From Thunnus maccoyii (lineage: Eukaryota > Chordata > Actinopteri > Scombriformes > Scombridae), in assembly GCF_910596095.1 (NCBI RefSeq), contig NC_056554.1, positions 5,890,001 through 5,954,000 on the forward strand: a stretch of 64,000 bases of DNA, given 5' to 3'. Made by a program: the position numbers and the translations under genes. This document shows positions 19,471 through 41,391 of this stretch, in pieces; within the stretch, counting starts at the first letter, position 1; every line of letters begins with the position of its first letter. The notes beneath the pieces were generated by a model. The model ran no database searches, had not been told where the DNA came from, and saw only the letters and a program-made list of their open reading frames with translations.

Positions 19471-20600
19471 GCCTATAGTATGACTATTCGGCTCCACCCA
19501 AGCTGTAGTATATGAAACTTACAGACTGATGTAGGGTTGTGTGGTTTGGTCAACATTTGATGAGGTTCAGAAATAGATGTCAGTTTATTAAGAGGGTAAG
19601 GTGTGTTCACTGTTCATAACCACAATTTTACACAGGATGTAATCACTTGATAATCATCTGACTCACACCTGATTAACAGTGTGAGTAATATACATCGCAG
19701 AGTAGTGAATTGTCATTAGTCTATTGTTCCTCATCACTGTACAGCAGTTTGATACTACAAACATAAAGCTGTCATTGAAGATATTTTCCTGCCCTAAAAT
19801 TTCAAATGTTCAAACTGCAGCAAGGAACAGGTTTCATTTCTGAATGTATTGTACTTATACTTTCATAGTGTTTTTCAACTGAAATGCACAATTTTCCAGT
19901 TTCATCTGTTGAGTTCGGTCACGGTTTAACAAAGTTAACACTTGTGTGTGGTTTTGCAAGTGCTGGGCCTTTTTTTTTATCTCACATCTTTCCAGCATGG
20001 TAAAACACAAGCTGATACATGATGTGAAGTTAAATGAACCAATAAGATCTTTAAAAATATAACTTTAATAAGTTATTTTGATGAAATATTATTTCTTCAT
20101 AAAAATCAGTAGACCTTTGTTGGTTGTGGTTATAATACAGAGACCTGAGGACCAGTCTTCCTGTTTACCACCACAATGGAAAATAACAAGCAGGGCATCA
20201 ATACATGTCTATATTTGTATGCAAACACGCAGTACTTGACACCATACTGCACTCTCTCTTCCTGTCAAACAACCAACGTGACCTCAGTAACATTGAAGAA
20301 CTCCATCTAAACTCTAAACTCTAAACTTTACATTGAGATTGAAGGCAGATTAAATAAATAAAGGAAAATAAAGAATTATGTGAGAATTAAAACTCAGTGC
20401 AAAGCCTGCAAATTTGTAACAAATACATCTTTATTACAAATTGGATTTTTTTGACATGGTAATAGTTGCTTCTCCCACCTGCCAGCCGAACAAAAATACA
20501 ACAGCAGAGTGATATACTGGAACAAGTTATCGGTTAACCTCTAAACTGCAGTTCCAGGTGCTTCCTGAGTCTATCTGGTGGCAGCATAAATCACATTTGG
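19471..20600. other. Gene-free stretch with flank blocks of the single-V family
   Basis: No gene seen. Around 20140-20175 and 20240-20310 are phrases (ACCAGTCTTCCTG; CACTCTCTCTTCCTGTCAAA) that recur behind other single-V genes. Near 20420-20470 a block TCTTTATTACAAATTGG...TTGACATGGTAATAG resembles 22461 and 32700, each just downstream of a single-V tail exon, and carries a minus-strand AATAAA. It looks like the 3' untranslated end of the orphan tail at 20.6 kb. Confidence 0.5.
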
Positions 20601-20864
20601 CTACACTTCTCTCCCCGATGCAGGCCTTTGGATTCTTTTGGGCTTTGGATTGAAACTCAGTGCTGCGTAGTTCAGGTTATCAGAGCCCAGATTCTGCAAA
20701 TTAAAGTATTTACAATCACTCATCTGACAGCTGACTTTGTGAGGAAAAACTAAAAGAAATAACTGATAAATGACTTGAAGCACTTCCTACATTTTAATAC
20801 ATAAAAGAAAGTTTTCAAGTTAGATTCACCTCACTCTGTGGTGTATTTTGTTCTTCATTAGGAG
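20601..20864 (-). pseudogene. Orphan tail exons of a single-V receptor
   Basis: Two exons: 20830-20864 (35 nt, APNEEQNTPQSE) and 20601-20693 (NLGSDNLNYAALSF..., ending GREV). Both match the last two exons of gene I in length, phase and sequence, including ITIM LNYAAL. A stop codon comes where the other copies continue into a VIYAA-R end, so the final nine codons are not translated. No V or membrane exon of the same unit is visible between 20.9 and 22.6 kb, so this is a remnant, unless it is used as a distant alternative 3' end of gene G. Confidence 0.65.
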
Positions 20865-22605
20865 CTATACAAGAGAGACAACACATGTTATCAATTAATT
20901 AATGACATTTATCATATTCCAAATCATGCGTACACAACTTTAAATAGGACATGCAAAGACAACAAAGCCAAATTCACTCATTTTGATTTCTGTGTAAACG
21001 GAATAACAGAGTTGGTCACTACGTAAACTAACTTTAAACAAAATAGAGGAAAAGCTGATTGTCTCTGACAGTCTCTGGTTTCTCTACAACGTGTATTTAA
21101 CAAGCTGCCGGGACCTTTAAAAAAATGACAATGTGTGGAAACAAATTGCCGACACTGATGCTTCATTAATACGGAGGCTACATGAACAGCTGTCCAGTCG
21201 GAGCAGAGTATGTAAATTATGTGCTCAACACAACACACAACAAACTACAGATTCATAAGAGTGCAGAGACTGCCGACTACTTTGCATCCATATGTGTGTA
21301 CCTGCTGAAAAAGAAGAGTGAAAGGCAATAATATGCAAAGGCAATAATATGTCAGATATTGTCATAACGGTTTGTTCTCCGCTGCCTCCAAGTGGCCAAA
21401 AATGTGTTAATGCAGCTTTAATAAAGTTACATAATTTAGATAATCCATACACACACGTCAGTGTTGCAAAGAGATATTTGCTGTTTTCGTCCCATCTTCT
21501 TTTTGAGGATATTTGCCTTTAGCCACAGGCCCTTTTCACAGCAGACATTTGTCACTGTAGGAAAAGCACAGGTGTCTCTAATAACAATAACCATGCCTCC
21601 ACTTTATTCAGTTGTCCCAGTAAAGTCATGACAGTGTGACAGTGAGCCAGCACGCACAATAGCAGGACCCTGAAACTGAAGCACCTAAATGGAATCCAGC
21701 CATCATTCATTTTATTATTTACACCTTTTCCTGCTGCAACATGTCAAAATGTCTGAAGTGAAAAAGGTCTCTGTGTTACAAGTAAGTAACATTGTTGTTT
21801 CGCGCCTGTTGCAGCTGATATTGTGAACGTTACAGACTGGAGAATAGCACTCAGCTGAAAGCCAGTCTTCCTGTGGTTGAGACTTCACTTCAGGCTGATA
21901 GAGACAGAACCATTTGTTACCACAGTGGAAAGTGTCAGAATGGGCAGATGTGGGGCATACAGTAATGCAAACACACTCAGGGCCGAAACTGAGTAGCTAC
22001 TGTATCTTTGTATTTTTCAGTTGGATATGTAGCAACTGACTACATGCTGCCTAGCTGTGATGTGTGCAAAATCCTGTTTCTGTAATGTGAACTCAATATT
22101 TTCAAGAACATCGATTAAATGTAGAGAATAATTTTAAAGAAAGTCTGCCAGTATTCACTGCTTCCTTTGAGATTTTACTCCCACAAAGCTTTGAGTTAAC
22201 AGACCTCATGATTTTACAACCCTGTCTCCTAAAAATGACGTCAAACAAGTGATGTGTACCTCACTCATTCATCCACTGTTACAGACTTCCATATAACTCT
22301 TTCTATAAGAGAATCTGGACAGTCATATTCCTCCTTCAAACACCAATCACATTCTTCAAACAAAATATGAGAGACTTCAGATGAGAGAAAGAGATAGAGA
22401 GGAAAAAATAAAGGAGCCGATGAGAATTAAAACAGAGCACCATCAAAAATAGCATGAATATAAGCTCTTTATTGCAAAACACAGTTTTTTGACAAAGTGA
22501 TGATAACTCTTCCCATCCAACAGCTGCACTAAATCAAATAAACACATTAATATGAAAAGAAAAATCAGTTTCACTCTGAGTTGCAGTTCCAGTTGCTTCC
22601 TGAGT
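20865..22605. other. Intergenic with repeated flank blocks
   Basis: No gene seen. Blocks at 21860-21935 (CCAGTCTTCCTGTGGTTGAGACTTCA...TTTGTTACCACAG) and 22200-22340 match blocks at 25165-25240, 32410-32540, 39250-39390 and 42100-42400, the recurrent downstream flank of single-V units. A minus-strand AATAAA near 22462 is a likely poly(A) signal for the gene G tail. Confidence 0.5.
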
Positions 22606-22946
22606 CTATCTGCTGGCAGCATAAATAACCTCAGTCTCCACTTTTCTTTCTGACGCAGACCTTCTGATTCTTATTGTTGCTGAATACAAACTCAGTGCTG
22701 CATCATTGACGTCCTCAAAGTCCAGCTCTACAAATAAGAGTCAGAAATGATGATAAATCAAATAAACACACATTAACAGATTAATAGAAAAAAAAAAAAA
22801 GTTTCACTCTGAGTTGCAGTTCCAGTTGCTTCCTGAGTCTATCTGCTGGCAGCATAAATAACCTGAGTCTCCACTTCTCTCCTGCTTCTTATTGTTGCTG
22901 AATATAAACTCAGTGCTGCATCACTGAGGTCCTCAAAGTCCAGATT
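22606..22946 (-). repeat. Tandemly duplicated last exon of gene G (two copies)
   Basis: Copy 1: 22606-22727 (122 nt). Copy 2: 22839-22946 (108 nt). Both read D-A-A-L-S-L-Y-S-A-T where gene I has the ITIM N-Y-A-A-L, so the ITIM tyrosine has become aspartate; both end VIYAASR. Copy 2 starts in phase 0 like the family. Copy 1 has lost one base at its 5' end and starts in phase 1, which lets it join directly to the membrane exon of gene G (23265-23375, phase 1 end) and stay open to its stop. Confidence 0.65.
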
Positions 22947-23088
22947 CTGCAAATAAGAGTCAGAGAACTCTCATACAACATATAGGACTTCACAAACAAT
23001 GTCAGATGATGACAAATTATAAAATCAATCAATCAGAAATAATCATGAGTTAAAGTGATTCTGGGATATTTTAAGTGAGATATAAGGG

Positions 23089-24336
23089 TTATTTTTGTGG
23101 ATGCTGTTCTTCATTTATGGCTAAATGACAATAAGTTTGATCAGCTCATCAACATTAATCATTATCCAAAAACATTGTTGTTAATGCACTTTGACATAAC
23201 AATACAAGGATGTGCACAAGCAATAAAACCAAATATAAAAAGATACAGTAGCTCTAACAAATACCTGTCTGAAGCTTCTTGATTTTGACAACCGGACCAA
23301 TGACGACTATTATAAGGAAAACAGTCAGACCACCCAGGATCACACTCATCAGCTTTGTTATTCCATCAGAATCTTCTACAAGAAAAAATGAAAGATCAGA
23401 TTCTACTTTAGCTTTAGTGTTTTGGCATCCTGCTAACATTGAAACTGAATCTAGTTTCACCTTCAGTTGACTGACAGTTTGTGCAATGAAAGAAAACTTT
23501 AGGAGAATCTTACTTTTATACTTGCTGTCCACGTCATTACTGAATTCATCGTGACCTTTTACAAGAAAGATCATTAAATTAGAATCTGTACATTTTACCT
23601 CTAGTGACTTGCCTTCTAATTCAGATTTAACGGGACAGAACTGACTAATAATTAACAAAGATCTATGCACAATGACAGATTTTTAATGGGAGGCAGGAAG
23701 AATTAAAATTTTAGGTTATGCAAGGAATCTAAAATTGTAAACTGTCATCATGAGTTTCACCAAATTAAATAACAAAGATAAAATTCTCCTAATGTTATTT
23801 TGACAGTAGTCCCAAATACTTTATGACAATCTTACCTTGAACCTCTAAATATGTTGCACTGACAATAATTGGGTTTTTGCTCACATAATATCCACAAAAA
23901 TACAGTCCAGAGTCTGTTAAATCCAATTGCTTGATTTTGAGAAAAAAGGTAGAAATGTTGGATCTCATTTCAAATTTGTCATTTTGAGATCCCTCACAGA
24001 ATGAAGCAGGCTCGAGAGGCTGGAACATAGATGAGATACAGTGAGGCTTGGATCTCTTGACCACTCTGAACCAGAATATCTGAGAGGGAACACTGGAAAA
24101 GTTGGAGCACAGCAGTGTCACGTCTTCACCAGGCTGAACATCCACAGTGTAAAACTCAGAAACTGAGACAGAGATCCAGCCTGAAACAAGCACACAGCTG
24201 ATAAATCTACAGGAACCTAATCAATACTTTTATACAAATCTACTTACAGTTGACATTGCAGTTGATGTTGTTGAGTAATTTAGTGCCAGTACTCACTCAG
24301 GCTGCAGAACAATAAAGCTGTAGTTAAGTTCCTCAT
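23089..24336 (-). CDS. Single V-domain immune receptor G (189 aa in the default model)
   Basis: Exons (minus): 24297-24336, 23836-24180, 23514-23555, 23265-23375, 23089-23120; 570 nt, in frame. Signal peptide MRNLTTALLFCSL. One V-type Ig domain, residues 14-128 (VTLLCSNF, IFWFRVVKR, LDLTDSGLYFCGYY), with extra cysteines (HCISS, SFCEG) and no J-like strand, unlike NITRs. A 14-residue acidic stalk exon (GHDEFSND...) is followed by an uncharged membrane segment (MSVILGGLTVFLIIVVIG). The connecting exon homologous to AQTEGQNPQHSE of gene I here reads AINEEQHPQK then a stop, giving a short tail without ITIM. Alternative tails lie at 22606-22946. I do not recognise the family by name; it is Ig-superfamily and NITR-linked. 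Confidence 0.75.
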
Positions 24337-24456
24337 TTTGCAAATGATTGTGTCACTGCAATTGCACGTAGCAGCTCCTATTAGAGGGTTTGAAGAGGCG
24401 GATTTATATAACTTCTTTGCTACACTGATCACACAAGCACGTTTGAAAAATTGTCT

Positions 24457-24471
24457 CCCCCCCCCCCCCCT

Positions 24472-24527
<56 letters not shown>
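24457..24527. repeat. Poly-C plus (CA)n microsatellite
   Basis: A run of 14 C (24457-24470) is followed by about 27 CA units (24474-24527). It starts about 120 bp upstream of the gene G start codon, so length changes could touch its promoter. Confidence 0.95.
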
Positions 24528-24530
<3 letters not shown>

Positions 24531-25489
24531 AAAGCCTCAAGGAGTGAAACCCTTGTTATTTGAAAGTGGAACGTCATGGGATGGGGGCATGATGAGAGTG
24601 GGGAGTTGGGGGTTTGTGTATGTGTGCCATCCTCCTCGGCACAACAAAGATGACTTGGAAATGTACCACAAATTCAAAACTGGTCAGCCACCATATGTCA
24701 TCCTGCTGTCTTGTCTTCTAAAACATCCAGTTTTCCAGATTTCTATTTTTTCCCGCTTGTTCTATATGAAAAATTAACCTTAACCCTCAACAAAAGGGCT
24801 GTTTTCCACTTGCACAATGTAGTGTGACATATATCCGTTTTACGAACTGCATGTCTGTTTACGTCCACTCAACCTGCTGTCAACTCTGCGCACTTGCCCA
24901 CTTGCTCATTGTTGCAAAGTACAACAATGAGCAAGTGGGAGTCATATATATTTGTATGCTTTATTGCAAATGATCAATTCAGATATTAAGCATACCACTA
25001 GAGACATGTAATGACCAAAGATGGTACAGAAACATAGTCTTCAACTGTGCTGCAGCACGGTGTCTTCAAGTGCTACATACATTCTGTCAGCAACAACAAA
25101 ACCGTTTCATTGTTTTGTGGCTGTTGCTTTAATTGTGAGTTACATGCTGGAAAAAATAGTGTACAACTGAAGACCAGTCTTCTTGTGGTTGAGACTTTAC
25201 TGTATGTTGATACAGACAGTGCTGTTTGTTACCACAGGTGAAGAATATAAATTCATGTTGCATGTTTTCACTTCTTGCTCTTGGACAGTAAGATCACTTT
25301 GTTTTCCTGTGAATGACTTTGAGATCTTACTAACCTTAACATGGACAAAGTGGATCTAGATGAACTGTTTTAGCTTCAGATGACTGACAATCTGCGCAAT
25401 GAAAGAAATGTGATGTACGTGCAATATAAAGAAAGAAGTAAACCAAGAATGGGAACTGAAAGAAAAACAGGACACTGTAATAAGTTTAC
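24528..25489. other. Intergenic G-H with flank block
   Basis: No gene seen. 25165-25240 repeats the single-V flank block (CAGTCTTCTTGTGGTTGAGACTTTAC...GTTTGTTACCACAG). 25370-25410 resembles intron sequence of gene G (TGACTGACAATCTGCGCAATGAAAGAAA). Confidence 0.5.
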
Positions 25490-25558
25490 CTTCAACATTT
25501 AAACTTATCACATTACAATATGGCTCTCCATCTATGTAAAATCCACACAGGTGTCAGG
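25490..25558 (-). pseudogene. Scrap of a single-V exon (3' end)
   Basis: Reads CGFYIDGEPYCNVISLNVE followed by a donor (GTAAAC), i.e. the last 20 or so codons of the V exon of this family. The rest of the exon is absent. It shows that at least one more unit once lay between G and H. Confidence 0.6.
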
Positions 25559-25629
25559 AAATTCAAACTTAGTTTCTGAATTCTATTCAACTACATTCCA
25601 CCATGTATAAAATTTGACAACATTCTTAC

Positions 25630-26117
25630 CTTGAATATTTAAAAATGTTGCACTGACAATAATGTCTGTTCATGTAAAATCCACAGAAATATAGCCCAGA
25701 GTCAGATAAATCCACTTGTTTGATCTTGAGAAAGAGGGGAGTGATGCTGGATGTCATATCCTCTTCTTGAAGTCCATCAGAGAAGGAAGCAGGCTCAATA
25801 GGACTGAACATAGAGGAGATGCAGCGGAGTGTGGTTCTGTTGACCAGTCTGAACCAGATTATCTGTGTGGCAGAAAAGTAGAGAGCACAACAGTGTGGCG
25901 TTTTCACCAAGCTGGACCTCCACAGTGTGAGACAGATGCTGACACAGAGATCCAGCCTGAAACAGACCACAGAGATATTAATCACTTGCAACAGGAAACT
26001 AAACAATGCCTTTAAATGAATTTGTTAATGATAAGCATTACAGTCAGTCCTGTGGAGTAATTCAATGCCAGTACTTACTGAGACTGCAGAGTAGTAGAGA
26101 TGTTATCAAGTTCCTCA
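25630..26117 (-). pseudogene. Single-V receptor pseudogene H
   Basis: The V exon (25630-25956) is 327 nt against 345 nt in G, I and K. It is recognisable (IIWFRLVNRT, CISSMFSPIEPASF, VDLSDSGLYFCGFY) but shifts frame near its 5' end and again toward its 3' end (the VSATYLKVQ part is out of frame). The leader exon (26079-26117, ...GAACTTGATAACATCTCTAC...) is cut at the start codon by the Ngaro-like element; host sequence equivalent to the gene G 5' flank resumes at 31087 (TTGTGCATATGATTGTATCACT). No membrane or tail exon follows downstream. Confidence 0.75.
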
Positions 26118-29100
26118 ATGAAGTTTATAGACTTATAAACAAAGTTCGGGAACCAAAGACCACGCCTTGTACGCAACCCATTTCCGCACCACAGGGTATT
26201 TAGACACACCATATCCGCTCCTCTCCCCTCTGTCTCAGCTTGCAAGCACCCTGTGACACACCAGCATAAACTTAAAACTCCTTACTCACATCATGGACCT
26301 CGAACTGCTCCTCAACGCTTCGGACGAGGACTCGTTCGAAGTCCCGGAGTCCCCCGGCGTCCGATCTTTCCGGCAGCCTCGCCTGCGCTCCTCGGTTTCC
26401 CTCATCCCGGCCTCTCGGCCCTCATCCTCCGTCGACGACGGTATCGTCGAGCCCTCGATCCCCAGCGGCTACAGGGGAAGGTCCCGTACTCGGCGTCCGA
26501 AGGAAGCTACTTATTCCCGACGCTCACTCCAGCCTCGCTCGAGATCCCGGAGCCCGCCCAAGAGGAGCAGCCACCGCGCGCAGCGCTCTCCTCGCCTCCG
26601 GTGTACGGACCGCTCCTCGGCCCCAAACATGTCCGAGTGGACCGTCGCTCGCTTAAAGCATTTCCTCAGCCAAAATAACATTCACTTCCATCGCACCGAC
26701 AACAAGGCAAGACTGTTTCAATTATACACAAACTCCCTGAAGGACAGCACTCTCTCCCGTCCATCTTCCCACGATCTTCCGGGTTCCCGACGTCGCGCGT
26801 GCGACGACGTCCGTGACGTCACGGCACGTCGCTCCGCCACACGCACACCTTCCTCCTCAGCAACCTCAGTCTCCCCAGTACAGTCCGCTTCTAACCCTAT
26901 GCAGGCTCTCTCTGCTCCACAGCCATTTCCTCCTCCTACTTTCTCTTCAGCCGCACTTACATCCCATGCATATACATTCCATCAACCCAGCATCCCTTCC
27001 TCCTCTCCGGCTCCTATCTCTGCTGCTCCTTCCCTCCCGGCCATCTCAGCTGCTCCTCCACCCGCACCAACCACGGCAGCCGCTCAGACAGCACAAACAA
27101 CAGCGGGCCCCAGCAGCTCCACGAGTTACACCCAACCTGTTCCTCCTCTTTCTTCTTTCCACCCTCCCTGTCTCCTCCCCTACCCCCCGGCTCCCCACGA
27201 CCCGCACTCTAGCATTACCCGTACTACAGCACCTGCACCTCCTTATCCTACAGCCTTACACACGGCCAGCCTCGGCCTTTTCCTGGCTCCCACATCTCCA
27301 TCCAGCAGCTACACCCTGGCCACCGCCCAGCCACCAGTGCGCCCCCTAGCATCCGCCCGGCCCTCCCCCGTGTCTCCCACCCTCAGGCAGCAGATCCTAA
27401 CCGGTAATTACATTGATCTCACTCAACTCATTCACCCTACATCAATTAATCCTCACATCCCCAGGGAACTGCTCACCTCATTCGGCCCCTCGGAACTTAA
27501 ACAGCCACTTCCTGCTCGCTCCAAGGACCTCACAGTCGCCGAGTTCGCTTTTGCGTTCTCATTGTATAGAGACATAATTTGTTCAGCCTTCCCCGACCGC
27601 AGGTCCGAGCTCGATGATTACTTGTCATTAATTCTTGACCTGGCCTTGCGTTTCGGCGGCAACGGTTTCTATACCTATCATATCCTCTTCGCCTCCCAAG
27701 CCGCCGGTCGCCTCCAACAGTTCAACCAGGGCACGTACTGGGGAACATTGGACCACGAGCTATACTGCCAAGTTTTCGCAGCTCGCGCTTCTCTGCACTG
27801 CGAAACGTGCGGCGCCCCTTCCCATCCCGCCGCAGCATGCACCCTCTCCGCCCCCCTGCCCCGCGCCTCGGTAACAGACAAGCGAAGCCCAGCCATGCCA
27901 CACTACTTGCCATCGGTGGCTCCCCCACCATCCATCACCCCCAAACCTGCCTTAGATCACCCGTCCATCCTCGGCCCCCTCCCCAAAGGCACGGACAGGA
28001 GAGGGAGACCTGTCCTCTACCAGGGAGGACGGATGATCTGCAATAACTTCAACGACCTCAGTTGCAGCTCCTTCAGCTGCAAATTCCTCCACACTTGTTC
28101 ATTCTGCGGGGGAGCCCACGCCAGAGCCGCATGCCCACACAACCCGACAAAGCAACAGCTGTGTAAGCATCTCAATACCCCCGTTAACATCAACGCCCTA
28201 GCCACCGCCCTACAAAACCATCCAGACACCCAGTTCGTCAACTTCCTCATTCAGGGCTTCACTTACGGTTTCCATCCGGGTCTGCAGGCCACGCCTGAGT
28301 CCACTCACATATGCAACAACTTGCAATCAGCCCTGTCTGAACCCACCACAGTTGACAGACTACTGCAAAAAGAAGTTGATGACGCCTTCATGATTGGCCC
28401 TTTCTCCAGCCCCCCTTTCCCGTCTTTCAGAGTCAGCCCAATCGGAGTGGCAACCAGGAAGTACTCTGGGAAAAAGAGGCTCATCATCAACCTCTCGTCC
28501 CCCCACGGTTCCACTGTTCCAAGCATTAACAGCCTGATTCCCAGCCTGGACTTTTCCACGCAATACGCCACTATAGACCACGCCATTTCCCTCATCCGAC
28601 TTGCGGGCCAGGGAGCATGGTTGTCCAAGGCGGACATCACAAGCGCTTTCAAAGTCCTCCCCATCCACCCCGACTACTGGCACCTCTTCGGGGTCTCCTG
28701 GAAGGGCGCATACTATTTTGCCGTGCGTCTAACCTTCGGCTGCAAGAGCAGCCCAAAAATTTTCGACTCATTGTCCGAAGCCCTCTGCTGGATTCTTTCC
28801 AACAATTATAAACTCCCATACGTCATCCACCTACTTGACGACTTCCTCACGGTCACGCCACCGTCTTCGCCCCCGTCATACGGTCTCACCACAATGATTT
28901 CCGCATTCACTGATCTCGGCGTTCCCCTGTCTCCAGAGAAAACAGAAGGCCCAAGCACATCCTTGGAATTCCTCGGCATCACCCTCAACTCCATTACACT
29001 CCAAGCATCTCTGCCTACTGAGAAACTCCACCGCATTTCTCTACTCATTCAAAACTTTCTCATGGCCAACACATGCACCAAACGTCAATTACTCTCTCTG

Positions 29101-31086
29101 CTGGGCCATTTCAACTACGCCACCCGCATCATCCCTCAGGGCCGATCTTTCTTGTCACACCTTCTCTCCATAGCCACCGCCGTCCCATCCATCCACGACC
29201 ACGTCACGCTAGACAGCGCGTGCAAGATGGAACTAAAAATGTGGCACCAGTTCCTCTCTTCCTGGAACGGCATATCCTTCTTTTACGACGTCCACGTTAC
29301 AGACGCCAATGACATCCAGCTATACACCGACGCCGCCCCTTCAGTCGGCTTCGGTGGTTACTACGGTGGCAGATGGTTCTCTGCCGAATGGCCACCCGAC
29401 TTCTCTTCCCTGGCCCCTTCCTCCACCATTTCAGAAATGTACCCGATTGTCATCGCTGCCATTCTTTGGGGGCATGAATGGTCCAAAAAGACCATCGCCA
29501 TCCACTCTGACAACAGCGCCGTCGTCGACATCCTCAACAAAGGCCGGTCACACAATCTGGACATCATGCAGTTCGTGCGCAAGCTCACATTGGTTTCAGC
29601 CCAGCACCAGTTCATCATCCGTGCACTCCACATTCCAGGCCACAAAAACGCAATCGCCGATTCACTCTCTCGTTTCATGTTTCAGAAATTCAGACAACTA
29701 GCTCCAGCCTCCAACCCTCTTCCAACTCCAGTCCCACCGTTTTCAGCCACAATCTACAACTGAACCCGCAACTGGAACAACTGGTCACCAATTCACGGGA
29801 CAACATCATCAACAGCATCACCCCTTGAACACTATCTCCATACTTCACCGGCTGGAATTCCTTTAAAACCTTTCACGTCTCCCAAGGACTCCCATTCCCT
29901 TCACCGGACATTCTTACCCTCTCCTGCTTCATTACATTCTCTCACACTCAACTCAAGATCAAGTCTTCCACCATACAGACCTACCTCAGCGGAATCAATT
30001 CCCGGATTCCCGGAGCACCATGCCCAGCCTCGTCCCACTCTCATACCTACATCCATCACGACCCGGATAACGTTAAGAAATCCCATTCTCGCCTCTCTGG
30101 TTGAAGTCTCTTTGGGGGCCTCGTACAGATGCCAGATCATCGAGACAGCACCCCCACCCTGAGTCTCAACCCCTGTTCCCACTTACCTCCCCGACGTCGA
30201 CGCATCTCCTCCTTTCATCTATCACTCTCCTATCCACTCCCTCCTTCCCCTCTTTCCCGCCTGCTCTTCTTTCTCCCCATCCCTCGACCCTCATCCCTTC
30301 GACCCCTACCCCCTCATCCCGCATCCCACGACCTCGACCCTCACCCCCGCATCCTCACACCCCCCGACCCTCTCCCTTCCCCCATCCATCCTTCCCTCTC
30401 CAACCATCCCTCTAACTATCCTTCCTCCTTTTCACCCTGCCTTCCATCACACTCCCAATAAACCATTAAATCCATATTCTAGAAGGAGTGGTCTTGGTTA
30501 GTGAAATGAAGTTTATAGACTTATAAACAAAGTTCGGGAACCAAAGACCACGCCTTGTACGCAACCCATTTCCGCACCACAGGGTATTTAGACACACCAT
30601 ATCCGCTCCTCTCCCCTCTGTCTCAGCTTGCAAGTCCCTCCCACCCGACCCCTCCGCTAACTTTCCTCTCTTCTCTGCTCAAACACAGGAACAGGGGGGC
30701 CTCGTACAGATGCCAGATCATCGAGACAGCACCCCCACCCTGAGTCTCAACCCCTGTTCCCACTTACCTCCCCGACGTCGACGCATCTCCTCCTTTCATC
30801 TATCACTCTCCTATCCACTCCCTCCTTCCCCTCTTTCCCGCCTGCTCTTCTTTCTCCCCATCCCTCGACCCTCATCCCTTCGACCCCTACCCCCTCATCC
30901 CGCATCCCACGACCTCGACCCTCACCCCCGCATCCTCACACCCCCCGACCCTCTCCCTTCCCCCATCCATCCTTCCCTCTCCAACCATCCCTCTAACTAT
31001 CCTTCCTCCTTTTCACCCTGCCTTCCATCACACTCCCAATAAACCATTAAATCCATATTCTAGAAGGAGTGGTCTTGGTTAGTGAA
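26118..31086 (+). mobile_element. Ngaro-like (DIRS order) retroelement with split direct repeats
   Basis: Family: tyrosine-recombinase retroelements. The ends show the Ngaro arrangement A1-body-B1-A2-B2: A1 26118-26246 equals A2 30506-30634 (129 bp), and B1 30114-30505 equals B2 30695-31086 (392 bp), with no length difference between partners, so the copy looks young. A 1156-codon open frame (26293-29763) holds a proline/serine-rich gag-like part with a SAP-like segment (WTVARLKHFL) and Cys/His clusters, a reverse transcriptase (LSKADITSAFK; LLDDFL) and an RNase H (LYTDAAPSVGFGG; IHSDNSAVVDIL). A recombinase region is seen only in trace, so the copy is not whole (at least one break). No target duplication is evident, as expected of recombinase-mediated insertion. 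Confidence 0.85.
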
Positions 31087-32822
31087 TTGTGCATATGATT
31101 GTATCACTACAACAGCACTTTGCACAACTAAGCCTCTGTAAGGTGGGTTTCATTGGTAAGAGGCAGGTGTTTTTTTGTGTTTTTTTTTCTTTTACATTTA
31201 TTTTGTTGTTTACACTGACTGACCACATAAATTCCCTCTGAAAAAAACCCAGTCTCAAGGAATCTTTTATGAAGTTTACAGCATCTCATGTTCCCACAAT
31301 TGTATATAGATCTACAAACCATAACAAGGCATGAATATTTCATGTTTAAAATTTAGTCATTTCAAATGTTTTCACCCAACTAAACTTTAACCTTCATGGA
31401 GTCGTACAGTCAGCTGAAGTAATTAGTCAGTTAATCAGTTGGTTGATCCACAGACAATTGGCAATGGCAAAAACTTCACTGGTATGTGATTTTGGATAAA
31501 TCCTTCATTTGCCAGTTTTTCAAGCAGAAATAAATAACATTCACTGGTTATATCTTCGCACACAGTATGTTAGGACTTGCTGCCTCTGTTATTGTAAATG
31601 AAAAATCACCATGAACAGAGCTCACCAAGGCTTTGGATAACCTTTGACATTATGTTGTGTAACTGTTTGTAATTATCAAGTGGCTTATTCTGCTGTGTGA
31701 GATTGGTGATTGATTGTATGACTTAAATGCCTCCTCTTTATTTAACCCATTATTTCACTTTAAACAGAGTTATAAAAATAATGATGGCCAAATTCTATTT
31801 AGTTGCTTCAGTTTCAGGGTCCTGGTATGGTTCAGTCAAATATAGCAGAGCCATCATTAAATATTATTAGTAACACCTGTGTTTTTCCTACTACAAGAAA
31901 AAATGTCTGCTGTGAAAAAAGCCTGTTGTGAGGTAAAATTATGACAACCTTAGCAGAGTGTGTGTGAGTTGTGTTGGACTGCTTTGGGCCAAACTCTGGC
32001 TGCTTTCAGTCTTATGTCTGAATGAGCTTTTCACTGTGTTCAAAGTGTCTGAGCAACATGTCTTTTTCAGTATGGATGTCCTTAAGTGTTTGAGTGAAAG
32101 GCTTCAAAAGAGCAGACATGTATACTCACCTAGCTGAGCTGATAAAGGGAACTTGTGGCAAGTGGAAGAACAGACCAAGAACAGGCATACATAAATCGAT
32201 TTTTGACATAAATCCTAACATATTTATGCAGACACGTCAGAGGTATAAACTGAACAGCTTTTGTACGCCTTGTACTGTGTAACTTTGCATTCCACTACGT
32301 GCTTCCAGGCTGCAAAAATTCAGTCTCAGTTTTGTGAATTGTGTGTTTCTGAAAACAACTGCATCCTTTCAAGATTTATTCTTGCAGATTTGTGGCTTAC
32401 TGCAGCAGGCCTCATGATTTTCACCTCAGTTGTGCTCAGACCACACTGTGCTGTGTCTTTCTGACAAAGTGGTTTGTCCTCCACTGCTGCAGACCTCCAT
32501 TTTCTGTAACTCTGATCTAGACAGTCATCAGTGTTCTTAATGGCTCCTCTTCCACAAAACACAATCATATCAGAGTGAGATCTAAGGCAGATAAAATAAG
32601 TAAGAAAGGGATTTTGGCTGGAAAGTAAGAATTAAAACACACTTTACACTGTAAAGGAGATTTACATGAATCAGCACAACTTGAGTGAATATAGAATCTT
32701 TATTAGAAAATTTAATTTATTGACATTGATGGTAACATCTGCCACCCACATAAAACCCCAACAAGACGGATTTAATAAAGCATCAGTTCCAGTCAGCGTT
32801 CAGTTTCAGTTGTTTGCTGAGT
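31087..32822. other. Intergenic H-I with flank blocks
   Basis: The first 60 bp are the split 5' flank of pseudogene H. About 32400-32545 is the recurrent downstream flank of single-V units (CCTCATGATTTTCACCTCA, CAGACCACACTGTGCTGT, CTAGACAGTCATCAGTG). A minus-strand AATAAA near 32700 fits the poly(A) signal of gene I. No other gene seen. Confidence 0.5.
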
Positions 32823-34015
32823 CTATCTGGTGGCAGCATAAATAACATTTGTCTCCATCTCTCTCTCTGATGCGGGCCTTCTCCTAGTTTTTGCTTTTGG
32901 ATGTAAACTCAGTGCTGCGTAGTTCAGGGCATCAGAGCCCAGATTCTGTAAATAAAAATATTTACAGTCACTCATCTCACATAGCTGAGTTTGTGAGAGA
33001 AAATAAAACCGTGATTTGATAAATGAACCAGACAGCATATAAAAATAGACTTCGATCACCTCACTGTGTTGTGGATTCTGTCCCTCAGTTTGAGCTAAAT
33101 AATGGAAAGAGTAAAACTGGTCAGTTAATAGTTTTTAATTAATTTATTGTTTAAATTAACACATTTAGGCAAACACAACATTTTGCATTTGTAAACTTCA
33201 TTAACTTAATTAAAACCAAATACAAGTACCTGTATGAAGTTTCCTTATTTTGACAACCAGACCAATGATGACTACAAGGAGGAAAACAGTCAGACCAACC
33301 AGGATCGCACTCATCAGCGTGCTTATTCCATCAAACACTTCTACAAGAGAGGTGATTTATATTAAACTTTTTGTACACTGTGTTACCTCTACTGGCTTGA
33401 CATCAGTTCTTATTTTGACAGCAACTGACAGGGCACATATCTGTTTATTTTCAGTTAAAAGAAAGAAAATAGCCTTACCTTGAACCTTTAAATATGTTGC
33501 ACTGACAATAACTGGGTTTCCATCTGTTTTAAATCCACAGAAATACAGTCCAGAGTCAGATAAATCCACTTGTTTGATCTTGAGAAAGAGGGCAGTGGTA
33601 TTGGATGTCATATTAAATTTGCAATTTTGAAATCCATCACAAAATGAAACATTGGAATCAGGGCTGAACATTGAGGAGATGCAGCTGGTGTTGGATCTGT
33701 TGGCCAGTCTGAACCAGTGTATGTGAATGGGAGCACTGGAAAAGTTGGAGCACAGCAGTGTGACGTCTTCACCAGGCTGGACCTCCACAGTGTAAAACTC
33801 AGAAAGAGAGGCAGCGATACAACCTGAAACAAACATCAAGTCATTTATTCATAGGCTGGCTATTCAGCAGAACCAAACAACACATATTATGTTATTAATG
33901 AGTATTTTGTAAGTTTCAGTGCTGGTAGGTTACTGTATTGAAGTTAAATGTTATATTGAGTAAAAATCTGGTAGATGTACTTACAGAATAAAGTCGTTAC
34001 CAAGGTGAAGTTCAT
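32823..34015 (-). CDS. Single V-domain inhibitory receptor I (214 aa)
   Basis: Exons (minus): 33985-34015, 33479-33823, 33230-33340, 33060-33094, 32823-32945; 645 nt, in frame. Leader MNFTLVTTLF; V domain 11-125 (VTLLCSNF, IHWFRLANRS, CISSMF, SFCDGF, VDLSDSGLYFCGF) in a 345-nt exon; membrane exon 126-162 of 111 nt (LMSAILVGLTVFLLVVIIGLVV), uncharged; linker AQTEGQNPQHSE; tail 175-214 with canonical ITIM LNYAAL (Tyr183), basic stretch KTRRRPAS and terminal NVIYAATR (Tyr210). This is the best-preserved member of the family. It is predicted to be a type I surface receptor that inhibits through ITIM-bound phosphatases (inference). No J-like strand, hence not an NITR. Confidence 0.85.
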
Positions 34016-34975
34016 CTTTGTGCATATGGTAGGACTGCACCACTGCTATGTCTGTAACTGAACTGTGCTCCAGCAAGCGTGGTCTCAGCGTAAAGAGACA
34101 AAGTGTTCTTTTGATCTTCCGGGTGCTCAGACGGACAGCTTAGATACTTTAAAGAGTCTGGGTGCTGCAAGGAACTTTAAATAATCTTTAAATAAACTTT
34201 AAATAATCTAGGTAATGTAATGTAATCACTGGACTGTCCATAGAGGTTTAACCCTGCTGCATTATGTTAAGCCATAGACATGTAAGTGATTGTACATGAG
34301 GTGTCCCGACAGCAATAGTCTGCTAACTATACGATTTTCCACTATTGCATTTCCACTTACCACTGGGAAAAGGAAGCTGTGTACAGTATATTGTCATACA
34401 TTTCTTTTGAGTTTTTTGCAGTCCATATAACCCAAAGATAGCCCAGTTTCACCAGCAAGAGTTACATACCTGGTAACATACCATGAAGCAGACTATTGTG
34501 ACCTACAGTTTTATATACCTTGATCAAGAGTTGTGCTTTTTAGGTGTCCTTTTATACAATTTTAACATATTCCTGGCCACCAATGAGAAATTAGTTTCTG
34601 TGTTCATGTTAGGAGAAATTTACAATTCAGTTAATTCATGTAATTTGATCTGATGCTGAAACAAATCTGTAAACAATGCATCTAAACCATTATAATTCAA
34701 ATCTTAAACTCTCATCTAACAAGCAAAATATTTGTACCCTTTGTTAACCCGAATTTTAAAAATGATGCTTCATTGCGCTGTAGTTGCTTGAAAATTCAAA
34801 TTACTGCCAAATTTAACCGGTCATCCAAGAGCCAAGCATTATGACCTCAGACTACGCCTCAAAGGACAACTGATCTGGCAGATATTTGTCCTCATCCTAA
34901 AATTAGTTAAAATTGGGCTTAATCTGTCTTCCTGGCATCAATAAATATATTCTTGCTTTCTTTCTTTTTTTTAAA

Positions 34976-35613
34976 CTATAAACCCCATAAACTGTATATG
35001 TATATAAACTGTATATGAAGATGGACGTCATGATGGCTCCCCAAAAGTGAAGCCAAAATATCTCACCCCCTGATGGCTAGTTGCAGTATAGATTATAAAT
35101 CCTGCCCCCTCCATGTTAGTGGATGGGAAATGAGCCAAACTAAAAACTCGAAGTGCATGTCAAATACATTTTTCCCAAAGATGGTTTTTGTCATTTTAGG
35201 TAGTTCATATCATACTGTTTGTTCAACTGCTCATTTTTCAAGTTTGTGATATTTTATGATATAAAAAGGGGGTGTGACATCACAATTGACAGCTGTGATT
35301 GACAGGCGCTCTCGAAACTCCATCAGACACGCAGACGAGCCGAGTAACCACAGCAGTTTCTGAAGGAAGACGCTAATGTACGTTTTCATTCGTGATTCAC
35401 TACCAGCTGCAGCTGCTATTTACCAACTGGATTTGGTTTGTTTACCTCTCCATTGTGAACATCATCCCGCCCCCTGACCAGACTCTGGTTGCAAATGACA
35501 TCACACATGAAAGATGGCAGCTCTGGAAAAAGAGAAATGTTGGCTTCACTTTTGCATAACAACAGGAAGTGGAGATGTGTCATCCATCTTTATATACAGT
35601 CTATGGTTTACCC
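34976..35613. mobile_element. Non-autonomous DNA element (MITE-like) with long inverted ends
   Basis: The left end (AACTGTATATGAAGATGGACGTCAT...CCAAAAGTGAAGCCAAAATATCTC) is the inverted counterpart of the right end (GTTGGCTTCACTTTTGCATAAC...CATCCATCTTTATATACAGTCTATGG). The arms are about 70-80 bp with mismatches, the whole about 640 bp, and no coding frame is seen. The phrase ATAGACTGTATATAAAGATGG is one I associate with interspersed repeats of percomorph fish. Confidence 0.65.
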
Positions 35614-38600
35614 TAGTGAAATGTTGAGAAGGGTTTAAGGTATGAAAAAACTGATACTGCTTGAGCCTAGATTGTATTAACTATAACAGTTGAAGTTTAA
35701 ATCTTATCTGTCCAGTGGTTATTATTGGATTCATGTCTGCAAGGCTTATTAGTAGGTTCAAATGCATATCACCATGGAGATGGATGGGAGCTGCACTGCT
35801 GTAGTTTTGATGTGATCTGTCATGTCTTCAAGATGTGCAAACTTGAGTCAAGTGAATGCTTTGATATGAGGCTGTGAAAGTGTCACCTTGCTACAGGGAT
35901 CTTCTCACAAAAATGTAGTGATGTGAGTTTGTGGGAGTGATGAGTGTAATAAATTGGAACTGTGATGATGTGGGGAGCAGTGACACAGTTTGACAGTGGT
36001 TTACCACTAACCAAAATTATCTTCACTTTATAGGGTTTTTCTACTCTTGAGAAGATCAAGGCCTTTGTTGTGTGTGGTTGTGATGCAGAGCACCAAAGGC
36101 CAAGCTTCCACTGGCTGAGACCTCATTAAAGATACAGATATACATACACTAAAGTGCTAATGGGGAGGTTACTGCTACTTAAAATTTCTGAGTACATTTT
36201 GCTTTTAGTTCAGACACTCAGAATATCCCTATACAGACATATATTGTAATAATAATAATAATAAAAAAAGAAATAATAATAATAATCATCACAATAATGG
36301 AGCTCAAAGTGCTTTACAACAAAAGAAATTACATGCACCAAGTGTTTCACATGAAAAGGACATAAAAGGAACATAAAAGCATGAAAAAAACATTAATGTA
36401 ACATAAGATGGAAAATAAAATCAACTTGATAACATCAACAAAAATAAGATAAAATAAAGTGAAAATACATTTTCAGCTTAGATCAGAACGTCTTCCCACA
36501 GGTTTAACCTCACTGTGGGTCTGTATCTGTGTCGGGCGCAACCTGAAGCTGCCCCGGTAAAAAAAAATCCTCAGTGGTGCTGTTGGGATTAAAAACACAC
36601 ACCACAAATTTGCTCTAACCTACCAACCATTGACTTCAGCACCTATGTAACATAAGATGGAAAATGAAATCCACTTGACAATAATAATAAAAAATAAGAT
36701 AAAATAAAGTGAAAATATAATAAAGACCACTTGATAATAAAAATAAGATAAAATAGATAAAGTGAACTAAAAATACATAGAATGGGTAATATATAAGGTG
36801 GAAGATGAAGCCCACTGACACATCAAGAGTACGGTCTAGAATGTGAAAAGTACCCTGAGTTGACTTTTGTTGTGATTTAAATAAAATTGAATTGAAAAAA
36901 AAAATTTATACTGAATAATAAAAAGAGAATAAAATATAACAAAAACAAGTTAAAACATAGAATAAAGTAAAATACAAGGGGTCAGAATCTTTGGGTATCT
37001 CATGATTTGATTCAGATTCTTGGTGTCTGAATGAATAGAAAAGGTTTTAGTTTCCTACTCTAGTACACTGTGTGCCAAACTATTCATTGATTCCCTTAGT
37101 CCACCGAAATACAATATGAAAGATAACTGGTTCAATGATCTTGATGAAGGTAACTGTCAGCAGAGAAAAGCATGTGAGAGTACACAGCTTTTTGATTTTA
37201 AAAAGTTAACTGCATTAATGAATTAATGAATTAATTTGAAAGCATCTTACAGTCTTCTGTTGGTATGAGAATAACAAAATGAAAGTGTAATTCACTGACC
37301 AACATCGCTGGTTAATGTCTTTGGTAAAAACAGAAGTTGGTGTGTTCGCCCTGCAGTAAGGGGAGGGGGAGGAGTGCTCTGTGTTGTTATTAATGTCATG
37401 TCTCTGGCGATGGAGAGCAGCCTCTCTGCTGCACCGTTAGCTCTGGGGAAAGCCATTGTTGTCCAAGACACTGAACAGACGAAGGGATTTAGAAGTGAAA
37501 CAGAGTTATTTTTTCACCTCAGAGTTGGTTTAAGTGTTGCAGTGTGTGTTTGTCAGCTGGTCTTGTTTGTTACTGTTGGAGTTCACTGCTCTCCTCTGCT
37601 ATCATTAGTCTCTGGGTGATGGTGTACAAAGTATTCACAATATATTTCATGTACATCTCGCAAAGGTGATTATTTAGTCATTAAATAATTTAAAAAAGCC
37701 CAACTGCTTCCTTTTTTAAGATGAACTACAAGATACCTCTACCGTGTGTGTGTTGTATACTGTCCGGGTGTTGCACTGTCCCCGCAGATGAGTTCTGCTG
37801 TAAAAGTAATGAATGACCAAATGATTGGATTATCATTATAATACAGAATTGTAGAAGTCAGACAAGTACTTTTTTGTCCTGTTATTGTGAATATCACTGG
37901 GAAAGGAATGTTCTCTTGTTATTCTTGAGGCCTACTTCTCTCTCCCATCCTGGATTAAGTCCAAATAAGGTAATACATGCATAAGCAAAACCTCTTATGG
38001 GCTCAAAGGCCACATCCTGGCTTAGGGCCCTTGGTTTCCTGAGCCTTGGTGAAATGTGACTCTCATGTAACATACATGTGCATGCAGATGTATATCTCAT
38101 GGCTGTGTGCCATTGGCTGTAATCATATTAGCTGATACATTGACCAATCACAGATCATGTCTCTGTTCCTTCTGAAACTCTAATAGATGAGGTTTGCTCT
38201 TTGTTCGTTGAGACAAGCTGATGCCAGATCTTTGTGTGAGATCTGCCTCCTTATTGTACAATAATAATTTTTAATCTTCAACCTAGGCAGTGTTTTGTGT
38301 ATTATTTCATATGTGTGTTTAGTGATTTCATACAATTTCCACGACACTGCCTTTTTCATTCCATCATGTTATTAATTAACATATAGAAAATAGATTTTTG
38401 ACATTTTTGAATCGATTGAAAGATAAGAATCACGATTCTTAAGTGAATATGTTTTTTCAGCCACCCCTAATATGTTGATATCACTGTTAAAAAACAGTTA
38501 CTCTGTGTTTTTCAAAGGCTTCTCCATTTGGTCTGCTTGGCAGAAGAAAGTAAGTCAGTATCCAAAGTCATCCATAACTACTTATCTCATCACAATATAT

Positions 38601-39981
38601 AAAAGTCGACATTATAATGTTAACACAGAACAGTGATATTAAATGTAGTTGCACTGAAATCTATTAGGAAATAAATACATTATTGTCACTTGAATAATTT
38701 ACTGTTGTGGTCTGTGTTTACATGACATTTTCATACATCCCTACTTCTAAAACAAAATCAAAATCTCAAACTTACTCTAAAACTCAGCCAGCTAGTAAAG
38801 AAGGACAAAGATCATTGTTATAAAGTAGCATCCTAATATTTAGAATAACTTTGCACTAGCTACTTGTCATACTTGATGAGTGGATGAATGAATGCTTGGA
38901 TGTTGTGTCTATCCCTATGGTGTTTAATGGGACTAATGTAAGGGAAATGTAATGACCTAAATGTTCCTGGAAACATTTGTTGCACGGTTACCAATATTGC
39001 CAAAAGTATTCTGCTTCTTTGGGGGTCCATGATGGCCATGGATGGATATTCATCCTAATTACTGTGATTAATGTGTTGATCCACTGTAGATGCCTTTAGT
39101 GTCGATGAGAAGTACTGTGTGAGGTCATCTGTTGTTTTCATTCACTAGTGCATATTCAGTACAAATATACAGATTGTAATTTATCCTTATGACCAAAGCG
39201 ACAAGGCCAGTGTTCACTTTTTCTGTTTAGAATTTCTTACAGATTTGTGACTGTATCATGATGTGTTCAGACCACACTGTGCTGTCTCTTCCCGTCAAAG
39301 AAGCGATGTATACCTCACTCATTCCTCCACTGTGGCAGACCTCAACTCTTCTTTTACTCTGTGTAGTCATCAGTGTCCAAAGGACAAGATAACAGGAGGA
39401 TTTTTGACAAGTGAAGGGAAAAATAAAGAAGCAACACATTTCATCATTAACAATATGTACATCTTGCTTGAACACTGCAACATTTTACAAAACTACATTT
39501 CTTCTGGTGATGAGGGAGATGGTAATGCTAAAAACAGCAGTTTCCACTAGCAGCTGAGTTGAATTTGAAGTAGCCATGATGCATGGCCAACTGACAGAAC
39601 CTTGATAATGCAGGCACTCAGGGGTTAATAAAATTTGTTACAAGAATGATGGTAGTGAAGTTAAAAATTCTTAGAGACCTTGCAGGCAGAAAAACAACAT
39701 CAGGCAGGTCTGAAGTTACAAAAAACATGATATACCCGGACAGCTCTGCGCTCAATGCTGCCTCCAGTAGCCAGAAGCTATATTGCAGTTTTATTAATAA
39801 TATATTAGAATTATTAATGATTAATTTACATATACTGACCATTATTTGGTGAAGATAGCCTGCCATCCAGTGAGCTCATATTTTTAACGTTCCATTTTAA
39901 CAAATTCTATGAGCCCCTGAGTGACTGAAATGTCTGGCCATCCAGGAATGTGATATGTGGCATGGCGGTCCTGGATCAGGA
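35614..39981. other. Gene-free stretch between I and K
   Basis: No gene seen. 36090-36130 (AAAGGCCAAGCTTCCACTGGCTGAGACCTCA) and 39250-39390 are flank blocks of single-V units. 37960-38340 holds moderately structured sequence with CCAAT motifs that I could not classify. Confidence 0.45.
36245..36990 (-). repeat. LINE-like 3' tail plus A-rich low-complexity tract
   Basis: On the minus strand, GTTGTAAAGCACTTTGAGCTCC followed by (TTA)n resembles the 3' end of fish L2-type LINEs. The adjoining 400 bp is A-rich, with repeated AATAAAATAAGATAAAAT phrases. Confidence 0.45.
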
Positions 39982-41391
39982 CTACATTTCAAGTCTCTCC
40001 CTTAGTCTAGTTGCAGTAGAATGGAGGTTGAGTTTCTGCTTCTTTCTCTTTTTTGGATTGGCAGTCAGTGCTGCATCTTTCTGGTCATCAGAGTGCAGAT
40101 TCTGCAAGTTAAAATGATATAACTAACTTATACAGTACAACAATGTAAACCTCATCATAAAGCTGGATTAATCCATCATCACTGTGGATTTAAAGCTTAA
40201 AAGCTGCTGCAAATCTGATTGGTTACTTGTCAAAAAAAATGCTCTTAATTTTGATTGATAAACAGGACATGTTTGATGATATTTACAACTGTAATGAGGA
40301 TGTGCAAAAACAAATAGAAACAAAATAAAGGACAGCCTTCAAACAGTACCTGTCTGAAGTTGACTCATTTTGATGACAAGTCCAATGATGACCTTAGTGA
40401 GAACAAGAGTCACGCTGCTCACGATCACACTCATCAGGTTTGTCATTTCACCAGGCTCAACTACAAGAAAAAATCAATAGATTAGACTCTACTTTTCTGT
40501 TGAACAAGGATCAAATCTCTACATTTTCACACATTTTTAAGATGAATATTTTCCTTTACTGGCTTAAGTCAACTGAATAATATTTAGTTGATAAATTTTA
40601 TTCTGCAAAATATATCTTGATGGGGGCTAGGGAGAAAGTTTTAGCTTATCTTTCATGTTGTCATGAGGTTAACCACTGCCTTCAAAGATCAGGCAAAATC
40701 CTTCAGATGTTGTTCATATTATTTAGACAGTATTTCATCATAATAATATAATTAAACTATAATTAAAGAGAACACATATCTGTTTTCTTGGTGTGAGCAG
40801 CTAAATGATACTTAAACATTCTTACCTTGAACCTTTATATATGTTGCACTGACTATTACTGGGTATTTGTTTATGTAAAATCCACAAAAATACAACCCAG
40901 CGTCAGATAAATCAACATGCTTGATTTTGAGGAACAAAGTGGAGCTGTTGGATGTCATTTCAAATTTTCCATTTTGAACCCCATTACAGAAAGAAGCAGG
41001 CTCAATATAATTGTACAGAGAGGAAATACAACGGGGCTTGGTTCTGTTGACCAGTCTAAACCAGACTATCTGAGAGGGAGAAGTGGAAAAGTTGGAGCAC
41101 AGCAGAGTGTCTTCTCCACCAAGCTGGACCTCCACAGTCTGAAACTCAGAGGCTGAGACCGAGATCCAGCCTGAAACACACAGCAGAGACAAAATGAGAT
41201 TTAATCCTCGGCTGTTAAGCAACAGACAGACAACAGTTCCTCTAATCAAGTGTATTAATGAGTAAATTCATTCTTCCTGCTGGTTATTAAAGGAAACATA
41301 AGTTAGCCATGGAGTACATTTTGAGAGTAATTCAATGTCAGTACTTACTGAGGCTGCCGAGAAGTAAAGCCGTAATCATAGTAAAGCTCAT
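39982..41391 (-). CDS. Single V-domain receptor K, activating type (Lys in membrane segment)
   Basis: Exons (minus): 41349-41391, 40826-41170, 40350-40460 are clear; the 3' end is uncertain. Leader MSFTMITALLLGSL; V domain 15-129 (LLCSNF, IVWFRLVNRT, CISSLY, SFCNGV, VDLSDAGLYFCGFY), 345-nt exon. The 111-nt membrane exon reads MSVIVSSVTLVLTKVIIGLVIKM: Lys152 sits mid-membrane, where gene I has Val and gene G has Ile. After this exon every acceptor I can find (near 40180-40215) leads to a stop within about ten codons. The family terminal exon (39982-40101) is open but has D in place of the ITIM tyrosine (QKDAAL). By family logic this is an adaptor-coupled activating counterpart of gene I (inference). 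Confidence 0.75.

Follow-up and report, generated by a model that had tools for sequence, protein, structure and literature searches.

A tandemly amplified single-V receptor family inside the NITR cluster of Thunnus maccoyii, probably a branch of the NITR group

Introduction

Does a set of single-V receptor genes lying inside a cluster of novel immune-type receptor (NITR) genes form a receptor family of its own, or does it belong to the NITRs? The question is raised by 64,000 nucleotides of Thunnus maccoyii DNA (assembly GCF_910596095.1, contig NC_056554.1, here C22, positions 5,890,001-5,954,000), referred to below as the window. An initial annotation of this DNA described genes G, I and K, pseudogene H, a V scrap and an orphan tail as an apparently unnamed receptor family, which shares a rigid exon plan and lacks the intermediate (I) domain and the joining (J)-like strands taken to define NITRs. 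In this study, we found that these loci belong to a coherent family, which we read, with a probability of about 0.64, as a single-V branch of the NITR group, large and amplified in tandem, within a large NITR cluster.

Results

Gene I is a complete single-V receptor gene

All family loci of the window lie on the minus strand, and gene I is the only one in which every exon is intact. Its spliced product has 214 amino acids and no internal stop, and its intron phases, read from the exons and splice sites, are 1-1-1-0. Exon 1 (33985..34015) encodes the leader MNFTLVTTLFC from an ATG and ends in phase 1 at a GTAAGT donor. Exon 2 (33479..33823) is an open, 345-nt V exon in phase 1-1 between a TTTCAG acceptor and a GTAAGG donor. 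Exon 3 (33230..33340, 111 nt) is open and encodes an uncharged membrane span, and exon 4 (33060..33094) is a 35-nt cytoplasmic linker (C1) that passes in frame from phase 1 to phase 0; both are bounded by AG/GT ends. Exon 5 (32823..32945), in phase 0, is the tail (C2), which carries LNYAAL, an immunoreceptor tyrosine-based inhibitory motif (ITIM), and ends in VIYAATR-stop. The Pfam V-set model scored 45.5 bits against a cut-off of 26 on the whole gene I protein; it was above the cut-off in I, K and G, and the general ig model was above its cut-off in I. Compared with the V exon of I, that of K is 63% identical and that of G 67%. The leader (with a GT donor), the V exon of exactly 345 nt (open and bounded by AG/GT) and the membrane exon of exactly 111 nt given in the initial annotation were borne out in all three genes, as were four or more V cysteines (six in I, four in K and four in G).

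The family is found in one region of C22, among NITR-type genes

The window's own genome (782 Mb) was searched with a typed consensus of the I, K and G V exons as the main query, and 150 of 373 candidates were scored. Fifty-two family V exons were found at an expectation value (E) of 2.9e-28 or less, all within C22:5,631,056-6,056,926. The window contains four of them; 40 more lie at 5.625-5.825 Mb and eight at 6.00-6.06 Mb. An in-frame stop is present in 7 of the 52. Below the 52 stood two scraps, listed as three rows at 3.3e-15 to 9.1e-10, and other V exons started at 8.9e-9. The natural V sequence of gene I recovered the same 52 places (E of 1.4e-20 or less), and every row obtained with the membrane exon (30 rows) or the tail (52 rows) was on C22:5.63-6.06 Mb. 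A family V scrap of 31 residues with 68% identity was also seen at C22:8432199-8432291, 2.4 Mb off the array. A scan of viral contigs for family relatives gave 46 pattern matches and no true relative.

Forty-four weaker V matches, 25-33% identical to the family, lie on C22:5.822-6.236 Mb, some between the family blocks and some past them. Inside the window these matches are NITR-type V-I exons, and most of them end in FG-G or a similar J. Blocks of the family therefore alternate on C22 with blocks of NITR-type V exons, the NITR type having been read in the window only. Identity between family V exons and the remaining V exons matched in the genome is 24-36%, and the family formed a clade in both V trees (support 98/96 and 98/98). 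These results uphold the view that a separate, coherent single-V family is nested in the NITR cluster.

The position on the chromosome also agrees with that of an NITR cluster. The large medaka and zebrafish NITR clusters share their chromosome with men1, according to the available part of the medaka NITR paper (PMC2442602). We located men1 at 1.75 Mb of C22, about 4 Mb from the receptor cluster, which is synteny with medaka and zebrafish at the level of the chromosome. The same paper names a SPON2/FGFRL1/NITR locus, seen by us as a section heading. A second large V array was observed at C8:24.08-24.52 Mb, with a spondin gene (24.98 Mb) some 0.45 Mb away, and the one exon read from this array ends in TFLRVK. 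By synteny with the SPON2/FGFRL1/NITR locus, the C8 array would be a second NITR cluster.

The family would count as NITR under the published definition

As far as the available text of PMC2442602 goes, receptors with a one-V ectodomain are NITRs and a J or J-like end is optional. The medaka search took as its target every V gene in the clusters, NITRs without the I domain mostly grouped together, and the six-cysteine I domain belonged to V-I class NITRs only. J is given there as FGXGTXLXV, and J-like as FGXG, as TXLX(V/L/I) or as parts of both, such ends being present in nearly all NITRs; tails carry ITIM or itim motifs, and a few forms have a charged membrane residue. Because single-V forms are included and the J end is optional, the family would count as NITR by these criteria.

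In the gene models of I, G and K, the V exon is followed by the membrane exon with no I-type exon found in between, and the single-V class needs none. The V exons of I (ATYLKV) and G (ATYLEV) end in TXLXV, which is J-like as defined in that text, and K has TXIXV. In the array TXLXV is mostly lost, with ends such as SVIHLNV or SEIHLKV. NITR features matched here are the location in the cluster, the single-V type I layout, the ITIM tail of I and the charged span of K. The defining role given to an I domain and a J strand is not supported by the available part of PMC2442602, and the J-like strand reported as lacking is present in I and G. The argument for novelty fails as it was stated, since single-V genes are NITRs in that source, catfish NITR10 and NITR11 are the best solved matches (see below) and men1 is syntenic. 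The family fits the definition as published in that part, with a distinct V scaffold and great expansion.

The single-V NITRs of medaka, zebrafish, catfish and Tetraodon, as described in the same text, resemble the family in being type I proteins with one V domain, a membrane span and ITIM or itim tails. They also share with it a few predicted activating forms, location in an NITR cluster and strong expansion within species. Unlike them, the family has a conserved CX12-13C pair and no FGXG, the other-species sequences compared being catfish NITR10 and NITR11 only; from the NITR-type V exons of its own cluster it is set apart by the 25-33% identity given above.

The V-I NITRs of the window (2548-3348, 6253-7011 and 9478-10263) share the cluster and, by eye, the cytoplasmic exon plan with the family, and their LHYAAL stands beside the family's LNYAAL. 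In two of the window NITR genes a short C1 is followed, by eye, by C2 in phase 0. They differ in that a single exon encodes both V and I, J ends are of FG-G or FLEG type, C1 is about 44 nt (by eye) and the V domain is without the extra cysteine pair. A tail-like frame at window 51620-51808, with VIYAAV and a second motif VVYTDV, is unlike the other window NITR tails.

Among solved domains, catfish NITR10 and NITR11 match the V domain best, narrowly so in fold

We compared the family with solved protein chains. With gene I alone, antibodies led the list and NITR10 appeared at 3.2e-8. With a 9-sequence profile, the best single-domain matches were catfish NITR10 (4.4e-12) and NITR11 (1.5e-11), which we take to be single-V receptors themselves; four chains above them were sums of repeated weaker antibody domains. 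An AlphaFold2 model of the family V domain was built from 9 sequences, with a predicted local distance difference test score (pLDDT) of 83.8. A fold search with this model gave the first three ranks to NITR10 and the fifth to NITR11, with 27-28% identity and a template modelling (TM) score of about 0.8. The margin for NITR is small, because a T-cell receptor ranked fourth (1.4e-8 vs 7.2e-9 for NITR10).

Besides the usual cysteines at 24 and 95 (model numbering), a pair at 47 and 61 was kept in 37 of 38 intact family V exons. Its spacing is CX13C in window genes I, K and G and CX12C in the shorter V exons, and an extra cysteine at 67 in gene I makes CX5C with 61. The pair is missing from the window NITR V exons read and from NITR10. 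In the model, cysteine 47 lies within strand 46-51 and cysteine 61 just after strand 59-60, positions that should bring the two opposite one another across the C'-C'' hairpin. A 47-61 disulfide would probably staple this hairpin, which is one of the variable loops.

Evidence for a separate ancestry

Several results weigh against placing the family in the NITR group. The FGXG of the J motif was not present in the family V exons, and the T-cell receptor stood close behind NITR10 in the fold search. In the first V tree the family was nearer, weakly (94/48), to two other V types than to the NITRs; in the second, the NITR rows formed one group in 0% of bootstraps. Three groupings were compared by the approximately unbiased (AU) test and none was rejected: family with NITRs, which the tree did not support either, p-AU 0.42; NITRs alone, 0.37; family with NITR10, 0.41. 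Deep placement by the V trees was dropped, the two trees being unresolved and their branches long. In the reciprocal search of the genome with NITR10, the leading matches were the C18 array (1.6e-12), C8 (6.0e-9) and a T-cell-receptor-like exon on C12 (9.1e-9); the family came after these at 1.5e-8, and the V-I NITRs of C22 were at 3.0e-7. This search leans against close kinship. With gene I as the query, the nearest V exons outside the family were likewise on C12 (3.8e-6 and 4.3e-6) and C18 (5.1e-6), followed by a C22 NITR (1.1e-5).

With the family tail profile, the next matches in the window after the family were five tails (E 0.004-0.03), four NITR-looking (the likeness to NITR tails being at 0.009-0.03) and one (17037) unassigned; when the ITIM columns were masked, the best match outside the family dropped to 0.37. 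In a reverse search with a profile of three NITR tails, E was 0.0075 for the orphan family tail and 0.13 for the tail of gene I. The likeness rests on the ITIM core and is lost on masking, and homology to NITR tails was therefore not used as proof.

These points could be explained by an independent single-V family of separate ancestry, brought into the NITR cluster and then amplified in place, the gene order being shared through a general immunoglobulin superfamily origin. Such a history would be consistent with the strong clade, whose stem is long in both trees (2.19 and 1.14 changes per column), with the cysteine pair, which was seen neither in NITR10 nor in those window NITRs that were read, with the low identity to the 44 NITR-type V exons, with the masked tails, which give no link to NITRs, and with the preference of NITR10 for other V arrays. 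We consider it unlikely, though the likeliest of the alternatives, since the best solved matches, by sequence and by a narrow margin also by fold, are NITR10 and NITR11, the search of its own genome found the family only within the NITR cluster, and the NITR definition in the available part of PMC2442602 takes in single-V genes of the clusters. Doubtful to much the same degree is a proposal in which a fish-specific family with a separate ancestry and some 50 V exons, co-amplified and interleaved with NITRs in one receptor complex, recognizes ligand by a cysteine-stapled, hypervariable C'-C'' hairpin, has no J-type G strand, and comprises inhibitory, tyrosine-poor and charged (activating) forms. 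The single-V branch of the NITR group remains our preferred reading.

The C18 array (C18:16.96-17.01 Mb) was the best genome match to catfish NITR10, with up to 39% identity; the one V exon read from it has, by eye, the look of an immunoglobulin light-chain V.

Most V exons of the neighbouring array are intact

In the 200 kb of C22:5.625-5.825 Mb, 32 of 40 V exons have an open frame and both splice sites. Their lengths vary (342 nt in 14, 339 nt in 13 and 345 nt in 5), as do the membrane exons (108-123 nt) and the leaders; the leader exon is 46 nt in 28 of the 32 and 34 nt in one, and the pattern search missed three. The exon plan is therefore less rigid than was first described. In a genomic reading, the nearest tail is of YAA type, either LNYAAL or LNYAAV, for 20 of the 32 genes; in the other 12 (11 DTAL, 1 SSML) the first tyrosine is missing. 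A linker exon was located for 14 of the 32 genes, one of them with a stop; the search found none for most LNYAAV genes. In the membrane spans of the 32 genes no K, R, D or E was seen by eye, ten distinct spans having been checked, and one class of spans carries histidine.

The eight defective V exons comprise one I-like copy without the usual acceptor and seven K-like copies that have no V donor and the same in-frame TGA, directly after the last V cysteine (C22:5685817, 5702645, 5723322, 5745954, 5756651, 5789178 and 5799160). Judged by this shared lesion, the seven are a pseudogene co-amplified with its neighbours, and gene K of the window is an intact relative.

The damage to G, H and the orphan tail and the stops in 7 of 52 V exons would also be expected if the family were mostly decaying, functionless relics made visible by recent duplication. 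With 32 of 40 array V exons open and properly bounded, and with an excess of amino-acid changes in the loops of one subgroup (see below), we regard this as hardly credible.

The leaders bear on another alternative, that the family belongs to a named teleost family other than NITR, namely NILT, CD300/CMRF35-like or DICP. Many NILT genes have a 46-nt leader exon, like most array genes, and two have a 35-nt Cyt1 exon, according to the available part of PMC3022915. NILTs are further alike in having a V-type Ig domain, a phase-0 tail with an ITIM and a multigene cluster, as described there for salmonids and cyprinids. In that description, however, the NILT V domain has CX3C, CX6C or CX7C, whereas the spacing here is CX13C, or CX12C in the shorter V exons, and NILT genes have a connecting-peptide exon, which was not found in the I, K and G gene models. 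NILT was set aside as unlikely on these two points, in agreement with the initial annotation. Nor was the V domain closest to CD300/pIgR: pIgR chains scored 2.1e-8 to 4.4e-8 in the 9-sequence profile search, below NITR10 and NITR11, and no CD300 chain was among the best 60 of 231 matches. Membership in any of these named families is very improbable. In word-based literature searches the family was not seen under another name, a weak negative, as few subscription papers were covered and sequences were not compared.

An excess of amino-acid changes in the binding loops of one of three subgroups

We next counted changes in three subgroups of array genes, NVE (13 genes), LKVK (11) and VIAD (5); three further array genes outside them were left out. 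The loop borders were set by the analyst before counting and after viewing the alignments. In the three loops of NVE, parsimony gave 74 amino-acid vs 5 silent changes (ratio 3.8, p 4.6e-4), and the remainder of V gave 25 vs 7 (ratio 1.0). The loop ratio was 1.55 (p 0.085) in LKVK and 1.69 (p 0.38) in VIAD, with 0.54 and 0.85 in the remainder of V. Pairwise ratios of nonsynonymous to synonymous rates (dN/dS) in loops vs framework were 4.8 vs 1.7, 1.45 vs 0.46 and 1.6 vs 0.9 in the three subgroups. The best reading of these counts is that selection has diversified the loops in one of the three subgroups tested, NVE. Against this stand two points: the loop excess is significant in NVE alone, and gene conversion among the copies, whose flanking introns diverge by 1-17% on average, may distort or inflate the ratios. 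Positive selection on sea bass NITRs is reportedly known, going by the title of a paper.

Putative inhibitory and activating forms

Gene I has the layout expected of a type I receptor: a leader, one V domain for recognition, a membrane span and an ITIM-type tail. Each receptor would bind a cell-surface ligand through loops resembling complementarity-determining regions (CDRs). In gene I, the motif suggests that the LNYAAL tyrosine, once phosphorylated, would recruit SH2 phosphatases and so damp the cell. In gene K, a membrane-span lysine that I and G do not have could pair with an acidic adaptor of DAP12 or Fc-gamma type, leading to activation. Gene K is predicted to be an activating form from this lysine and its short predicted tail, and the best reading of the pair is an inhibitory I and an activating K. 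In plan only, by analogy, this would resemble mammalian KIR and other paired receptors, with inhibitory ITIM forms, a charged short-tailed form and fast gene turnover.

NITR ligands are largely unidentified, and their identification is called for in the available part of PMC2442602. About 50 germline single-V exons, with loop-focused selection in at least one subgroup, would offer small domains for the hunt for NITR ligands, and I and K a natural inhibitory/activating pair for tests. A census of V-I genes alone would overlook these 52 V exons.

Incomplete family loci of the window

Gene K has a leader (41349..41391, from exon reading), a 345-nt V exon (40826..41170, supported by its splice ends and the V-set match) and a 111-nt membrane exon (40350..40460) with the lysine within the span (LVLTKVIIGL). 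A search of its intron for the linker exon gave a best match of 16/35 bases and none that would function. Read in the frame that a linker would set, the tail-like exon (39979..40101) contains no tyrosine, and splicing the membrane exon straight to it would give ESAL-stop.

Gene G consists of a leader (24297..24336, from exon reading), a 345-nt V exon (23836..24180, splice ends and V-set match), a 111-nt membrane exon (23265..23375, splice ends) and a damaged linker (23086..23120) with an in-frame TAA and no donor. A related linker, with both splice sites, is present at C22:5634204. Two tail copies follow, one with LSDAAL and VIYAASR (22839..22946) and one with VNDAAL and VIYAASR but without an AG acceptor in register (22606..22728); both have lost the first ITIM tyrosine. 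An orphan linker exon of 35 nt (20830..20864) is identical to the gene I linker at 26/35 bases, and an orphan tail exon (20571..20693) keeps LNYAAL and has a TAG ahead of VIYAATR. The proposed plan of a 35-nt linker and a tail with LNYAAL and VIYAA-R therefore holds completely for gene I; it does not hold for G, whose linker is broken and whose first motif is altered, for K, whose linker was not found, or for the orphan tail with its stop.

Pseudogene H, the V scrap and the orphan linker and tail all exist as described. H has a leader remnant (26079..26113), where a comparison with G by eye places a retroelement at the start codon, and a shortened, frame-broken V exon (25630..25956) that runs through more than one reading frame. 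The V 3' scrap, CGFYIDGEPYCNVISLNVEG, lies at 25490..25531 and extends partly beyond these ends. The retroelement runs from window 26117 to about 31086 and contains a 1168-codon frame with an RVT_1 match. It has perfect direct repeats of 130 nt (26117/30505) and 300 nt (30114/30695), which suggest that its insertion was probably recent. We presume from its repeat plan that it is DIRS/Ngaro-like.

C22:6009992-6017459 matches window 23837-33821, with V exons matching G at 111/114 and I at 109/114 residues and with an H-like fragment. On this identity, the G-, I- and H-like copies, about 95 kb away, are a segmental duplication. The linker and tail that lie downstream of its G-like copy are unlike those of gene G.

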